A stretch of DNA of 64,000 bases from Halovenus salina. Lineage in GTDB: Archaea > Halobacteriota > Halobacteria > Halobacteriales > Haloarculaceae. The notes under the pieces are model-generated. The model was given only the letters and a program-made list of their open reading frames with translations, was not told the DNA's origin and did not search any database. Shown here piece after piece: positions 34,754-41,198 of the stretch (positions are counted from its first letter, which is position 1; every line of letters begins with the position of its first letter). The position numbers were made by a program, and so were the translations under genes. The stretch spans positions 3,224,001 to 3,288,000 of the forward strand of contig NZ_CP112972.1 in the NCBI RefSeq assembly GCF_026410925.1, written 5' to 3'.

Positions 34754-35941
34754 GTGACCAGTCCGGACAGCAACGCGACGGGAGCAATCCTCCAGGTCGA
34801 CGGCGGCGACCAGCTCGTCATCGAGGGCGAGGCAATCGAGCGAGTGCTGGCCGTCGAACCGGCCGATGTCGAACCGGCCGACCACCTCTCGTTTGCCCGG
34901 AACGTCTTCATCCCGCTGACGACGGCGTGTCGGTACACCTGTACCTACTGTACGTACTTCGACCCGCCGGGGGAGGCAACACTCCTTACCCCGGCGGAGG
35001 TTCGCGATATCGTCGCCACGGGAGCTGAGGCCGGCTGTACGGAGGCACTCTTTACGTTCGGCGACGACCCGGATGACCGGTATACCGGGATATACGACCA
35101 ACTCGAATCACTGGGGCACGATTCGATACACAGCTATCTCCGCGAGGCGTGTGACATCGCGCTGGAGGAAGGGCTTCTTCCGCATGCCAATCCCGGCGAC
35201 CAGACCCGCGAGCAGATGGCTGCTGTCGCCGACGTGAACGCGAGTATGGGCGTCATGCTGGAGACGACCGCAGACGTTGGCGTCCACAGCGGTCTGCGGG
35301 CCAAATCGCCGGCACAGCGCCTCGGAACCCTTCGAACGGCCGGCGAACTCGGTGTCCCGTTCACCACTGGCATCCTGGTCGGCATTGGCGAGACCTGGCG
35401 TGATAGGGCCATCAGCCTGCTCGCAATCGCGGCGCTTCACGAGGAGTACGACCACATCCAGGAGGTCATCGTCCAGCCGGTCGCCGAGAACGACCGCTGG
35501 CAGGGCGGGTCTCCGGAGACAGCGACGCTCCGGCGGACTGTCGCGATGGCGCGGGCCACTCTCCCCCCGGAGGTCTCGTTGCAGGTCCCGCCGAACCTCG
35601 CGCCGGCCGAAGCGGTCGTCGACTGCGGTATCGACGACCTGGGTGGTGTCTCTCCGGTGACAGACGACCATATCAACCCCGACTACGCGTGGCCGGCACT
35701 CGACGAACTCGAACAGATTGCGGATGCGGCGGGCGTCCCACTTCAGGAGCGACTCCCTGTCTACGACCGGTACCTCCCTGACGACCTCAGTACCGGGGCA
35801 CAGAGTGACGAGCAATCAGAGACGACACGGTCCGAGTGGCTGTCGCCACGCATCAAGGAGGCACTGGCTGCGGAGACGCCAGCAGGCCGGCGTTATCGCG
35901 GCGTTCTCGACGAAGAACCAGTCCACGCCCCACAGCCGTAA
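34754..35941 (+). CDS. cofG: 7,8-didemethyl-8-hydroxy-5-deazariboflavin synthase subunit CofG
   Basis: 395 aa with a GTG start. This radical-SAM enzyme has its cluster motif C-x3-C-x2-C in ACRYTCTYCTY (about residues 57-65). With CofH it builds the deazaflavin ring (Fo) of F420 from tyrosine and the flavin precursor. Other blocks are FTFGDDPDD, NPGDQTREQM and QEVIVQPVAENDRW. It is convergent with cofH, whose stop lies 6 bases away. Confidence 0.94.
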   Translation: MTSPDSNATGAILQVDGGDQLVIEGEAIERVLAVEPADVEPADHLSFARNVFIPLTTACRYTCTYCTYFDPPGEATLLTPAEVRDIVATGAEAGCTEALFTFGDDPDDRYTGIYDQLESLGHDSIHSYLREACDIALEEGLLPHANPGDQTREQMAAVADVNASMGVMLETTADVGVHSGLRAKSPAQRLGTLRTAGELGVPFTTGILVGIGETWRDRAISLLAIAALHEEYDHIQEVIVQPVAENDRWQGGSPETATLRRTVAMARATLPPEVSLQVPPNLAPAEAVVDCGIDDLGGVSPVTDDHINPDYAWPALDELEQIADAAGVPLQERLPVYDRYLPDDLSTGAQSDEQSETTRSEWLSPRIKEALAAETPAGRRYRGVLDEEPVHAPQP

Positions 35942-35947
35942 CCGCTA

Positions 35948-37303
35948 TCACTCGACCAGCGGCGACCCGTCGGCTCGGGGGCCAAGCCGTGGCCCAAACG
36001 GCGGCTCCTCCGGGTCGATTCGGCGGCGCTGTTCGTAATCTGTCGACCGCTCGACCGGCGTCCGTCCAATCGCCGAAATCATCTCGACGTACTCCTCGAA
36101 CGAGCGAGCCTCGCCGAAGGTCCCGCCGGCACGCTTCGTGATTTCCTCGGAGAGAATCGTCCCCATGAAGTCATCCGCCCCACACGAGAGCATCTTCAAC
36201 CCCTGTTCGTCGCCGTATTTCACCCACGAGGACTGGATGTGCTCGATGTTGTCGAGAAAGAGCCGTGAGACGGCAATCATCAGCTCGTCTTCGTCGCGGC
36301 TCGCGCCGCCGTCGACCATGCCGCGGTCGTGCAACGGCGTGTCGTGATGGACGAACGAGAGCGGGACGAACTCGGTGATTGCGCCGGTCCGCTCCTGGAG
36401 GTCTCTGATGGTGTCCAGGTGGTGAATCCGGTGGGCCTCGTTCTCGACGTGTCCGTACATGATTGTCGCGGTGGTCGGGAGGCCAACGGCCGCCGCGGCT
36501 TCCATTGCCTCGACCCACTCGTCGCTTCGAATCTTTCCCGGACAGATAACCTCGCGGACCTCGTCGACCAGAATCTCGGCCGCGGTTCCGGGCGCGCTGT
36601 CGAGGCCGGCTGCAGCGAGTCGGCCGTACACCGTCTCGTAGCTCCAGTCGGTCCCGCGCCGGGCGTGGTAGGCCTCCTCGGGCGTCATCGAGTGAAGGTG
36701 GATATCCTCGACGCTCATCGCCCGCATCTGCTCGCAGTAGGTGCCCGGGTCCGTCTCGTACCGGGCTGGTGACTTGTAGTTCAGATCGCCGCGGTCGCTC
36801 GTTTCCAGGAGTTCGCGGTGCTCTTCGTCGAGGGCCAAGGCCGGATGGAGTCCGCTGACGGACGTCACCTCATAGATGCCGGTCTCGATTGCGTCGGCGA
36901 CGATTTCGCGTGATTCCGCGGGGGTCTTGGTGAATCCTGGGTTGTCGGCCTCGTTCTCTGTGAGGAACTGGTCCGAGCGGTCCTTGAAGTTACAGAAGAG
37001 ACACCCTGTATTACACGCCGTCGTGACGTTGTTGTTGAGGTTAGCGACGAAGGTAACCTCGTCGCCGACGACCTCGGCGCGGCGGCGGTCGGCGGCCTCC
37101 AGTACCAGCTCCTTGCGCTCGCGGTCGATACCTGGCGTATCGGTTCCGGTTGTGAGTAACTCGATACCGTCGTCGACGGTGAGTCGGTCGCCCGAGCGTG
37201 CCTTGGTGAGTGCGTTCTCGAAAGACTGGCCGGTCTCCGGACGCAGCTCCCAGTCGTAGCGCTCGCGGGGAACGTTCGGTCCCCCGCGGGAGGCGTCTGC
37301 CAT
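35948..37303 (-). CDS. cofH: Radical SAM subunit CofH of Fo synthase
   Basis: 451 aa. The radical-SAM cysteines are in NTGCLFCNFKDR, preceded by TACN (C-x3-C-x2-C near residue 97). SGLHPALALDEE and TTATIMYGHVENEA are family blocks. It condenses the tyrosine-derived radical with the ribitylaminouracil, working with CofG. It is about 60-70 residues longer than many CofH proteins because of the N-terminal stretch MADASRGGPNVPRERYDWEL and following. Parts of this 5' region are duplicated in the chimeric gene at 38562-38924. Confidence 0.93.
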   Translation of the reverse strand: MADASRGGPNVPRERYDWELRPETGQSFENALTKARSGDRLTVDDGIELLTTGTDTPGIDRERKELVLEAADRRRAEVVGDEVTFVANLNNNVTTACNTGCLFCNFKDRSDQFLTENEADNPGFTKTPAESREIVADAIETGIYEVTSVSGLHPALALDEEHRELLETSDRGDLNYKSPARYETDPGTYCEQMRAMSVEDIHLHSMTPEEAYHARRGTDWSYETVYGRLAAAGLDSAPGTAAEILVDEVREVICPGKIRSDEWVEAMEAAAAVGLPTTATIMYGHVENEAHRIHHLDTIRDLQERTGAITEFVPLSFVHHDTPLHDRGMVDGGASRDEDELMIAVSRLFLDNIEHIQSSWVKYGDEQGLKMLSCGADDFMGTILSEEITKRAGGTFGEARSFEEYVEMISAIGRTPVERSTDYEQRRRIDPEEPPFGPRLGPRADGSPLVE

Positions 37304-37409
37304 TGTCCATTATCCAGGACCGGCGACCTAAACACTGACGGGTGCGGTGAGACCTGCCACCATCGCTGGGAGCCGTTGTATTTTTACTCCGGGCTGTGAA
37401 TCTCTAGCT

Positions 37410-38561
37410 ATGTCTGGCTCCCGCCGCGCTGTTGTCGCCCTCCTCTGTCTGACTGCTGTCTGTACCCTTGGTGGGTGTACGTCGATACTTTCAGACGACA
37501 TCACCCAGGAAGAACTCATTGAAAAGGCAGAGAGCGCCGAACCACCCGAGGAGATGAGTGCGACCGTCGAAGTGAACGCGACTGTCGATGACGAACAGAT
37601 TGGATACAGCTACGATGTCTGGTACCGCCAAGGGGGACTGAGCCGAGTCGAGGGAACCTACAGGGGGAGTCGAACGGTCCAGGTCAACGACGGCGACAAG
37701 ATATGGGCCTACAACGCTGACGAGGAGACTGTTAGCATACGTGAGGACCAGACAGATATCTCACCGCTTCGGGACGCGGTTAATATCACCGAGGAGCTGC
37801 TCCGGTCGAAAAACGCCACCGACATAACAAAAACGGAGTACGAAGGCCGCGAGGTCTATCACGTCGTCTTCGACGAGAGTGCAACGCAAAAGGAGAAGAA
37901 TCAGAACAGCGTTCTCACGCCACTCGTCCCCAGCGTAGGGGGTATTCTCCCCGGGGGACAGACTGACCAGGCCGAAAACGAGACCGCTGACGGCGTTGAG
38001 CGGGTCGAACTCTGGATAGACGCAGAGTACATGTACGTCCTCCGACAAACCGTCGAAGGCGAAGACCCGTCCGAACAGCGGTACACCGATGTTGAGTTCG
38101 AGCCAGGCATCGACGACGACCGCTTCGAGCTCGACGTTCCGGAGAACGCGACAGTCAACGAGATCGAAACCCCCGAGTATCGAGAGTTCGACTCCCTCGG
38201 AGAGTTTCTGGCACAGTCACCGGTCGAAATCGAGCGCCCGACTTTTGAGACACTCGACGCCGAGTTCGAAAGGGGATTCTTCCTGTCCGAAAATAACTCC
38301 GAGGGCATTCGAGTTGGTATCCGGTACGATGTCGGCCAGCCGTCCTGGCTAACGGTAAACAAATACAACGACACGACCGAGACCACTGTCGAGGGAGAGC
38401 CAATCCAGGTCGACGGTGTCGACGGCGTCTACGAGGAGGTCTCACAGAACTCCCACAAAATTAGCTGGACCGCCAATGGCTTCCGATATCAGATTCTGGC
38501 CAGTGTTCAAACAGATCGTGAGACGCTAATTCGGCTCGCAGAGTCGATGGAGACGACCTAA
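37410..38561 (+). CDS. LolA-like lipoprotein, copy A
   Basis: 383 aa. A Sec-type signal with lipobox (TLGGC) ends at about Cys 23. The mature part has alternating strands that begin MSATVEVNATVDDEQIGYSY and include VWYRQGGLSRVEG, RTVQVNDGDKIWAYNADE and EVYHVVFDES. These are the concave-sheet elements of LolA/LppX-like lipoprotein-carrier domains. It ends LASVQTDRETLIRLAESMET. The ligand is unknown. The start ATG 37410 gives the signal peptide directly. The protein has a close paralogue (39024-40175). It is divergent from cofH with 106 bases between starts. Confidence 0.8.
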   Translation: MSGSRRAVVALLCLTAVCTLGGCTSILSDDITQEELIEKAESAEPPEEMSATVEVNATVDDEQIGYSYDVWYRQGGLSRVEGTYRGSRTVQVNDGDKIWAYNADEETVSIREDQTDISPLRDAVNITEELLRSKNATDITKTEYEGREVYHVVFDESATQKEKNQNSVLTPLVPSVGGILPGGQTDQAENETADGVERVELWIDAEYMYVLRQTVEGEDPSEQRYTDVEFEPGIDDDRFELDVPENATVNEIETPEYREFDSLGEFLAQSPVEIERPTFETLDAEFERGFFLSENNSEGIRVGIRYDVGQPSWLTVNKYNDTTETTVEGEPIQVDGVDGVYEEVSQNSHKISWTANGFRYQILASVQTDRETLIRLAESMETT

Positions 38562-38924
38562 TCAGGACGGGAGTAGATTGACGACCGACAGCGCCTCTGC
38601 CATGACCCAGGCGACGAGCACTGCGTAGGCAACTAACAACAGATACGCCTCGTGAAGTGTCAGGGCAAGTCGCGTGCGGAGTGTCACGAACAACAGTGCG
38701 GTCGCGGCCACGAGACAGCTCATCAGCGTCGCAGTCGCCGAGAAATCGATAACTGCAGACTCAGTCAACAGAACGCCTATTGGAATAACCACCAGCAAAT
38801 CGAAGATGGTCGAGCCAAGCACGTTGGCGACGCTCGCCACGTCGTGCTCGCGGTTGGCGGCCTCCAATACCAACTCCTTGCGCTCGCGGGGAATGCTCGG
38901 TCCCCCGCGGGAGGCGTCTCCCAT
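38562..38924 (-). CDS. Chimeric ORF: CofH N-terminus fused to exchanger C-terminus
   Basis: 120 aa. Residues 1-15 (MGDASRGGPSIPRER) copy the CofH start. The next residues (KELVLEAAN) copy CofH about 63-71. From REHDVASVANVLGS on, the protein is the last three membrane segments of the cation exchanger encoded at 40176-41198. The ATG and upstream region are duplicates of those of cofH. The frame stays open through both junctions. The ion-binding Asn of the second alpha repeat (GSNTFD in the parent) reads GSTIFD here, so exchange activity is unlikely. It may be a pseudogene or a new small membrane protein. Confidence 0.75.
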   Translation of the reverse strand: MGDASRGGPSIPRERKELVLEAANREHDVASVANVLGSTIFDLLVVIPIGVLLTESAVIDFSATATLMSCLVAATALLFVTLRTRLALTLHEAYLLLVAYAVLVAWVMAEALSVVNLLPS

Positions 38925-39023
38925 TATCCAGGACCGGCGATCTAAACACTGACGGGTGCGGTGAGACCTGCCACCATCGCCGGGAGCCGTTGTATTTTTA
39001 CTCTGTGCTGTGAACCTCTAGCT

Positions 39024-40175
39024 ATGTCTGGTTCCCGACACGCTGTTGTCGCCCTCCTCTGTCTGACTGTTGTCTGTACGCTTGGCGGGTGTACGTCGAT
39101 ACTTTCAGACGACATCACCCAGGAAGACCTCCTCGAAAAGGCAGAGAGCGCCGAGCCACCCGAGGGGATGAGTGCGACCGTCGAAGTGAACGCGAGTCTC
39201 GATGACGAACAGATTGGATACAGCTACGATGTCTGGTACCGTCAAGGGGGAATGAGTCGGTTCGAGGGAATTAATAGGGGAAGTCGAACGGTCCAGGTCG
39301 ACGACGGCGACAAGATATGGTTCTACAACGCTGACGAGGAGACCGTCAGCGTACGTGAGGATCAGACAGATACCTCACCGCTCCGGGACGCGGCTAATGT
39401 GACCGAAGAGCTACTCCAGTCGAAAAACGCCACGGAAATAACGAAAACGGAGTACGAAGGCCGCGAGGTCTATCACGTCGTCTTCGACGAGAGTGCAACG
39501 CAAACAGACAAGGATCAGAACAGCGTTCTCACGCCACTCGTTCCCAGCGTGGGCGGCATTCTCACTGGTGAACAGACCGACAAAGCCGAGAATGAGACCG
39601 CTGACGGTGTCGGGCGGGTCGAAATCTGGATAGACGCAGAGTACATGTACATCCTCCGGCAAACCGTTGAGGGCGAAGACCCGTTCGAACAGCGGTACAC
39701 CGATGTCGAGTTCGAGCCAGGCATCGACGACGACCGTTTCGAGTTCGATATTCCAGAAAACGCGACAGTCGAGGAGGTTGAAACGCCCGACTATCGCGAG
39801 TTTGACTCCCTCGGAGAGTTTCTGGCACAGTCACCAGTCGAAGTTGAGCGCCCGACCTTCGAGACACTCGACGCTGAGTTCGACAGGGGATTCTTCGTGT
39901 CGGAAAACACCTCCGAGAGTGTTCGCGTCGGTATCCTGTACGATGTCGGCCAGCCGTCCTCGCTAACGGTGAACAAATACAACGACACGACCGAGACCAC
40001 CGTCGAGGGAGAGTCAATCCAGGTCGACGGTGTCGACGGCGTCTACGAGGAGGTCTCACAGAACGTCCACCGAATTAGCTGGACCGCCAATGGCTTCCGA
40101 TATCAGATTCTGGCCAGTGTTGAAACAGACCGGGAGACGCTGATACGGCTCGCTGAGTCGATGGGGACGACCTAA
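39024..40175 (+). CDS. LolA-like lipoprotein, copy B
   Basis: 383 aa with the same length, signal peptide, lipobox (TLGGC) and fold as copy A. By hand alignment 47 of 383 residues differ and there are no gaps. The changes are mostly conservative and spread evenly, so both copies appear to be kept by selection. It sits next to the full exchanger gene, and its upstream region repeats that of copy A, including the cofH start region. Its stop directly abuts the exchanger stop, so the genes are convergent with no spacer, the same as at copy A. Confidence 0.8.
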   Translation: MSGSRHAVVALLCLTVVCTLGGCTSILSDDITQEDLLEKAESAEPPEGMSATVEVNASLDDEQIGYSYDVWYRQGGMSRFEGINRGSRTVQVDDGDKIWFYNADEETVSVREDQTDTSPLRDAANVTEELLQSKNATEITKTEYEGREVYHVVFDESATQTDKDQNSVLTPLVPSVGGILTGEQTDKAENETADGVGRVEIWIDAEYMYILRQTVEGEDPFEQRYTDVEFEPGIDDDRFEFDIPENATVEEVETPDYREFDSLGEFLAQSPVEVERPTFETLDAEFDRGFFVSENTSESVRVGILYDVGQPSSLTVNKYNDTTETTVEGESIQVDGVDGVYEEVSQNVHRISWTANGFRYQILASVETDRETLIRLAESMGTT

Positions 40176-41198
40176 TCAGGACGGGAGTAGATTGATAACT
40201 GACAGCGCCTCTGCCATGACCCAGGCGACGAACACTGCGTAGGCAATCAACAACAGATACGCCTCGTAAAGTGTCAGGGCAAGTCGCGTGCGGAGTGTCA
40301 CAAACAACAGCGCGGTCGCGGCCACGAGACAGCCCATCAGCGGCGCAGTCACAGAGAAGTCGATGACCGCAGACCCCGTCAGCAGGACGCCTATTGGAAT
40401 GACTACCAGCAGATCGAACGTGTTCGATCCGAGGACGTTGGCGATGCTCGCCACGTCGTGCTCGCGGTCGGCGGCCTGGATACTCACGAGCGCGTCAGGG
40501 AGACTGGTGGCGGCGGCGACGACGACGGCACCCCACAGGAACTCCGGTGTTCCGACCAGATCGCCGATGACGATGACAGCGTGGACAAGTCGCTCGACCG
40601 CCACGAGAATAATCAACAGCCCCGCACCCAACAGTCCCCACTGTTTCAGCGGTGAAATCGAGTTAGACTCGACCTCGCCGGTGTACTCTGTCGTGTCCTG
40701 CCACTGCATAAACAGATAGAGCAGGTAGACGCCAAGCGGGAACAACACCATCGGCCGGGTCAACTCTCCGCTCAGCGAATCGTTCAGCGAGCCGTTCATC
40801 GGGTTATAAATAAGCGACATGGAGAATGTCAGGAACAGTACGAGAATCGATATCATATAAAACAGCGTCTCCTTGTGGACGAGAGTCCGAGACGCACTGA
40901 TACTTGACCCGCTGAAGACGACCGCAAGTGCTGGAATAACGAGGATATTGAAAATCGCCGAGCCGACGATACCGCCGGCACCCAGCCCGAACGAGCCCGC
41001 AAGCGCCGCGAAGATAACGCTTGCGAGCTCCGGGAAACTCGACCCAATCGCCGCGATAATGCCACCCTGTACAACCGGGGGGAGGTCGTAATGGATTGCG
41101 AGCTTAGAGCTTGCACCCTCGAGCCAGTTGCTTCCGACCCAGATTGCACCTGTTGTAACGATGATGATTGCTATCTCGACGAGCGGCCACTCAGACAT
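40176..41198 (-). CDS. Sodium/calcium exchanger family (CaCA) antiporter
   Basis: 340 aa with about ten membrane helices and the two inverted alpha repeats of the cation/Ca2+ exchanger family. Alpha-1 is AIGSSFPELASVIFAAL with GIVGSAIFN, and alpha-2 is AAATSLPDALVSIQAADR with ANVLGSNTFDLL. The acidic residues in S-x-P-E and S-x-P-D are the expected ion ligands. It probably extrudes Ca2+ or another divalent cation with Na+ influx, important in salt-rich cells. Its 3' third was copied into the chimeric ORF at 38562-38924. Confidence 0.9.
   Translation of the reverse strand: MSEWPLVEIAIIIVTTGAIWVGSNWLEGASSKLAIHYDLPPVVQGGIIAAIGSSFPELASVIFAALAGSFGLGAGGIVGSAIFNILVIPALAVVFSGSSISASRTLVHKETLFYMISILVLFLTFSMSLIYNPMNGSLNDSLSGELTRPMVLFPLGVYLLYLFMQWQDTTEYTGEVESNSISPLKQWGLLGAGLLIILVAVERLVHAVIVIGDLVGTPEFLWGAVVVAAATSLPDALVSIQAADREHDVASIANVLGSNTFDLLVVIPIGVLLTGSAVIDFSVTAPLMGCLVAATALLFVTLRTRLALTLYEAYLLLIAYAVFVAWVMAEALSVINLLPS

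Follow-up and report, generated by a model that had tools for sequence, protein, structure and literature searches.

In the genome of Halovenus salina (NCBI RefSeq assembly GCF_026410925.1, contig NZ_CP112972.1), a tandem duplication has placed two copies of a lipoprotein gene side by side and created, at the seam between the copied units, a chimeric open reading frame (ORF) that joins the start of cofH, the gene of FO synthase subunit CofH, to the 3' part of a CaCA-type cation exchanger gene. The locus lies within a window of 64,000 nucleotides (nt; positions 3,224,001 to 3,288,000 of the contig), which constitutes the whole stretch of DNA analyzed here. Judging from the sequence, we consider that the duplication arose at a short repeat, that both lipoprotein genes have been kept by selection, and that the chimera is a by-product from which a CofH-exchanger fusion protein is probably not made, the latter given its strongly relaxed constraint and its lost start-codon spacing; to this reading as a whole we assign a probability of roughly three in four.

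The duplicated unit of approximately 1.6 kb is constituted by the 5' end of cofH, the whole lipoprotein gene and the 3' end of the exchanger gene, its ends lying inside cofH and inside the exchanger gene, and its copies are about 90% identical. When the region was compared with itself by BLASTN, positions 37259-38863 paired with 38880-40477 (1605 columns, 90.1% identity), and positions 37085-37124 paired with 38850-38889 (40 nt, 92.5%). These are two direct copies, collinear and side by side, as expected of a tandem duplication, and an initial annotation of the locus had correctly recognized that the segment occurs twice. It had also placed the seam in a 14-nt word that cofH has in common with the exchanger gene; the word is exact in both parents, carries one mismatch at the seam, and is the sole 14-mer common to the two coding strands. 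Given that any common 14-mer was found in just 0.8% of 500 codon-shuffled cofH/exchanger pairs, the position of the seam is not attributable to chance. Over 1553 aligned sites, the two copies of the unit show 150 differences, which rules out a recent duplication or an assembly copy.

The second unit was further altered at two joints. In the first unit, two copies of GCGCTCGCGG stand 144 nt apart, whereas a single copy is left in the second unit, which lacks the interval between them, the loss being in frame. Since both H. aranensis and H. rubra have the corresponding 48 codons in their cofH genes, it is the second unit that lost the 144 nt, as had been proposed. The remaining joint is at the start codon: two copies of AATGG surround the native cofH ATG, and the second unit is short of a further 7 nt there. 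The route of formation, initially described as entirely legible, can indeed be read in the duplication at microhomology and the short-repeat deletion, but this third joint, equally legible, had been overlooked. All coordinates are listed in Table 1.

Table 1. Features of the duplicated locus, in window positions.
Feature	Position	Strand	Remark
14-nt word in cofH (parent of the seam)	37085..37098		exact match to exchanger word
14-nt word in exchanger gene (parent of the seam)	40464..40477		exact match to cofH word
Duplication seam	38850..38863		one mismatch to the parents' 14-nt word
GCGCTCGCGG, two copies, first unit	37115-37124 and 37259-37268		start-to-start distance 144 nt
GCGCTCGCGG, single copy left, second unit	38880-38889
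AATGG, two copies around native cofH ATG	37300..37311	minus	7 nt absent here in second unit
TATA-like TTTAGG of cofH	37327..37332	minus	begins at -29
TATA-like TTTAGA upstream of chimera	38941..38946	minus	begins at -22, not about -29
cofG	34754-35941
cofH, complete (FO synthase subunit CofH)	35948..37303	minus	gave the chimera its 5' end
Lipoprotein gene, copy 1	37410..38561	plus	TATA-like run at 37379-37386
Chimeric ORF	38562..38924	minus	120 amino acids; about 20-24 CofH-derived and about 96 exchanger-derived residues
Lipoprotein gene, copy 2	39024..40175	plus
CaCA-type cation exchanger gene, complete	40176..41198	minus	gave the chimera its 3' part

Synonymous divergence (dS) between the copies amounts to 0.287 in the lipoprotein pair and 0.265 in the chimera/exchanger pair, compared with distances to H. 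aranensis of 0.675 for cofH and 0.847 for the exchanger gene. From these values, the divergence of the duplicates is judged to be middle-aged and similar in the lipoprotein and chimera/exchanger parts, and the earlier statement that the event is not recent stands (in rounded values, 0.27-0.29 within the duplicates as opposed to 0.68 from cofH to that of H. aranensis). In protein, the lipoproteins are 88% identical, in line with the divergence of about 12% reported initially. Their pairwise ratio of nonsynonymous to synonymous rates (dN/dS, ω) is 0.21, with 63 synonymous and 51 nonsynonymous differences, and the pair as a whole is therefore constrained. Under codon models with a molecular clock, ω was 0.24 for copy 1 and 0.20 for copy 2; ω=1 was rejected in both cases (p=8e-10 and p=5e-11, respectively), and neither copy differed from the background (p 0.31 and 0.80). 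On these models, the two lipoprotein genes are kept by selection, and the age of the pair corresponds to 0.44-0.46 neutral substitutions per codon per branch. Separately, a run of 42 successive lipoprotein codons displays identical third positions (38388-38513 compared with 40002-40127; P=0.009); simple gene conversion does not fit this run, as six other differences fall inside it.

The chimeric ORF, which does join CofH and exchanger parts and is free of stop codons over its 120 amino acids, as first described, shows a different pattern. For the codon tests of the joint parts and for the simulations, chimera codons 23-25, at the junction, were omitted. With a clock, the chimera branch had an ω of 0.46-0.53 versus 0.061-0.066 in the background, and equal ω was rejected (p 2e-4 and 1e-5); without a clock, the values were 0.32-0.36 versus 0.05-0.07 (p 0.0045; twice the log-likelihood difference, 2ΔlnL, 10.1 between fits), bearing in mind that clock-free codon models let changes move between sister branches. 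By these estimates, constraint is far weaker on the chimera than on the parent genes. Counts of changes point in the same direction, with 13 nonsynonymous and 10 synonymous changes on the chimera branch and 1 and 8 on that of the parents (Fisher p=0.044; three sites unassignable to a branch were left uncounted). Neutral simulation expects 67-71% nonsynonymous changes, and 13 or fewer out of 23 has a P of 0.09-0.21. Further, 5 of the 12 replacements in the exchanger part fall at columns that are invariant in eight Halovenus exchangers (40 of 99 columns; 4.8 replacements expected by chance), so that the replacements appear to ignore exchanger conservation, as chance predicts. On the chimera's own data without a clock, ω=1 gave p 0.10 (2ΔlnL 0.8 in a separate fit), and with the age fixed at 0.25 the estimate was 0.71 and ω=1 stood (2ΔlnL 1.6). 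The dN/dS comparison suggested along with the initial annotation indicated constraint on the lipoprotein pair, and for the chimera it returned values of 0.32-0.53 without rejection of ω=1 on its own data. Openness of the frame as a sign of function was rejected, an open frame being the likelier outcome in neutral simulations (51-78% still open after 19-30 substitutions). The in-frame seam and the in-frame 144-nt deletion may each be put at about a one-in-three chance.

A second line of evidence concerns the start codon. The chimera had been said to keep the cofH ATG and its upstream region; the ATG and a TATA-like box do remain, but 7 nt are missing and the ATG has moved with respect to the box. 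Of 17 Halovenus cofH genes, drawn from 15 genomes including that of the window, 16 carry a TATA-like word that begins at -28 to -32 from the ATG, and none was found for cofH of Halovenus G009; in 2000 trials with shuffled cofH upstreams, such a placement occurred on average in 0.45 of the 17 and never in more than 3. This survey took in 17 of the 18 cofH matches reaching the N-terminus, one piece in G010 being omitted as it had no locus, and employed a TATA-like pattern of our own choice, which two of the 16 positives also match elsewhere, at -36 or -10. The ATG of the chimera, whose box begins at -22, falls outside this range of distances. In Haloferax volcanii, leaderless transcripts are reported to represent 72% of coding transcripts, about 80% of the leaderless ones begin on the start codon, and promoter matches lie no more than 1 base from the main position in 78% of the positives (PMC4983044). 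By this geometry, a leaderless transcript of the chimera would begin approximately 7 nt inside the ORF, and would lack its AUG. The next in-frame start candidates are TTG 18, TTG 20 and GTG 29, the last of which is already past the CofH part.

The predicted protein is also incomplete. It matches Pfam Na_Ca_ex in one stretch (profile positions 61-150 of 151), and of the alpha-repeats no more than the later portion of one is left. The CofH part is short, and up to E 1 the chimera gave no match to Radical_SAM, the domain expected of a CofH. Of the two alpha-repeats with their ligand residues that define an exchanger, alpha1 is missing and alpha2 lacks its SLPD motif, and the motif GSNTFD has become GSTIFD, with an N to T change at an invariant column of GSN. 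The parent exchanger aligns to residues 18-325 of NCX_Mj, the Na+/Ca2+ exchanger of Methanocaldococcus jannaschii (PDB 3v5s, 5hxc). In this alignment, SLPD of its alpha2 corresponds to SLPE of NCX_Mj. Unlike NCX_Mj, the chimera begins past this SLPE/SLPD motif and has no alpha1; of the coordinating positions of NCX_Mj, which we take to be E54, N81, E213 and D240, only the equivalent of D240 is kept.

The unduplicated order cofG, cofH, one lipoprotein gene, exchanger gene and bioB, which represents the ancestral state, is found in H. aranensis and H. rubra. In Halovenus G006 and G014, cofH adjoins the exchanger gene with no lipoprotein match between them, and in Halovenus G012 the exchanger gene adjoins a lipoprotein gene at which the contig stops, before any cofH. 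The presence of a lipoprotein gene at this position thus varies among Halovenus genomes, indicating its gain or loss at the site in the course of Halovenus evolution. The assemblies of Halovenus G005 and G014 each contain two near-full-length cofH matches. With the chimera as query, 127 of 146 family genomes (that of the window included) gave a match and 19 did not; in the listed part of the match table, which covers some incomplete assemblies and whose matches were not each inspected, the chimera does not occur among the entries of the 145 other family genomes. Among the matches listed, only the window's own starts at residue 1, the others starting at residue 7 at the least, and mostly at 18-25, which is what ordinary exchanger genes would give. 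A chimera lacking a duplicated lipoprotein in relatives, the observation named at the outset as contrary to this origin, was not met among those matches either. As for the lipoprotein family, same-strand neighboring copies with frames of differing length occur in 7 of 61 other matching family genomes (G071, G073, G074, G096, G097, G098 and G109, from three genera, counted by eye), which suggests that tandem copying of this family is recurrent.

The principal alternative regards the chimera as a young gene with a function, namely a small three-helix membrane protein expressed from the cofH promoter under weak purifying selection. We regard it as unlikely, although several results favor it and weigh against a decaying by-product. 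The frame is open, with the seam and the 144-nt deletion both in frame, and three broad hydrophobic regions are kept. Freely fitted ω amounts to 0.32-0.53, and ω=1 on the chimera's own data with a clock yields p 0.054 and 0.079; when the age is fixed at 0.45 per codon per branch, ω is 0.39 and ω=1 is rejected (2ΔlnL 14.9), as it is at an age of 0.35 (ω 0.50, 2ΔlnL 7.3). Neutrality being significantly rejected at the age of the lipoprotein pair, weak or early constraint may have acted on the chimera. For each lipoprotein copy, the test of ω=1 is weak when no clock is assumed (2ΔlnL 4.0 and 3.0). In addition, more than half of all transcription start sites reported for Haloferax volcanii have no recognizable basal promoter (PMC4983044), and the chimera may accordingly have another start. 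A functional gene, however, is difficult to reconcile with replacements that strike genus-invariant columns no less often than chance, the change in GSN among them, with a start codon 7 nt off its conserved spacing, and with the absence of the alpha2 SLPD motif and of the N-terminal half, and its open frame is expected by chance. In view of these features, together with the relaxed constraint and the partial alpha-repeat, the birth of a fusion gene claimed by the initial annotation is not sustained. It seems to us slightly more doubtful still that the fusion ORF, by way of a re-tuned start, continues to yield a small membrane protein of three helices that is weakly constrained (ω about 0.4); if true, the locus would present an archaeal gene between birth and fixation, with all three of its building joints legible.

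It is improbable that the two units come from diverged strains and were joined when incoming DNA underwent unequal exchange with resident DNA, in which case the dS of 0.28 would partly be strain divergence and the seam would be younger. The seam itself is undated and both copies stand at about the same distance from H. aranensis, which fits either history; nevertheless, 17 other Halovenus genomes, several of them incomplete, yielded no single-copy relative nearer than H. aranensis, and the 13 replacements on the chimera branch against 1 on the parents' branch indicate that relaxation lasted much of the interval. An assembly artefact, which the listed contamination estimate of 6.84% for this genome (3.77 Mb, 4 contigs) might bring to mind, is scarcely credible, as the 150 differences are far beyond what a misjoin of one sequence would leave, and both flanks of the duplication consist of syntenic genes on one contig.

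Profile searches were consistent with the identity of the parent genes. The cofH product scored 541 bits against NCBIfam PRK07360.1, passing the cut-off of 426, and 332 bits against TIGR03551, under the cut-off of 374, and matched Pfam Radical_SAM and CofH_C, both above cut-off. The parent exchanger matched Pfam Na_Ca_ex in two stretches (144 bits; cut-off 24.9) and scored 121 bits against NCBIfam TIGR00367, under the cut-off of 180; a DUF7533 gene and bioB lie beyond it. The lipoproteins have a weak DUF4367/LolA-like match (Pfam DUF4367, 22.7 and 20.4 bits, about the cut-off of 22.1), and copy 1 has an LGGC lipobox.

Chimeric genes formed by tandem duplications with breakpoints inside two genes have been described in Drosophila (PMC4503668), and the present locus resembles those cases in that two part-copied neighbors are fused at the seam with a whole gene copied between them. 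Unlike the chimeras of that account, it belongs to a prokaryote, has three legible short-repeat joints, and gives no clear sign of selection on the chimera. Among the open-access papers listed in our literature searches, none describes an archaeal case of a chimeric gene formed at a tandem duplication. In a review of Haloferax volcanii, microhomology-mediated end joining is tied to deletions and rearrangements (PMC7776575). Our locus, likewise in a haloarchaeon, has its joints at repeats of 5-14 nt, and the route composed of the 14-nt duplication, the 144-nt deletion and the 7-nt deletion agrees with the short-repeat joining treated in that review; here, however, the process is deduced from old joints, on which recombination or replication slippage would leave equal marks.

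With the integration of these findings, we propose that recombination or end joining at the 14-nt word common to cofH and the exchanger gene made the tandem duplication, which would have copied the lipoprotein gene in full, its upstream region included, along with fragments of both neighbors. Selection would then have retained both lipoprotein genes, as the codon models suggest, and two later short-repeat deletions, one of 144 nt in frame and one of 7 nt at the start codon, would have changed the seam ORF, presumably leaving it as a by-product in decay, strongly relaxed and deprived of the usual start-codon spacing. Because simulated neutral frames stay open more often than not, an open chimeric frame of such age is no evidence of function. 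The locus would thus constitute a clean natural record of short-repeat joints building and then eroding a haloarchaeal chimeric ORF, while the lipoprotein copied along with it was under selection.

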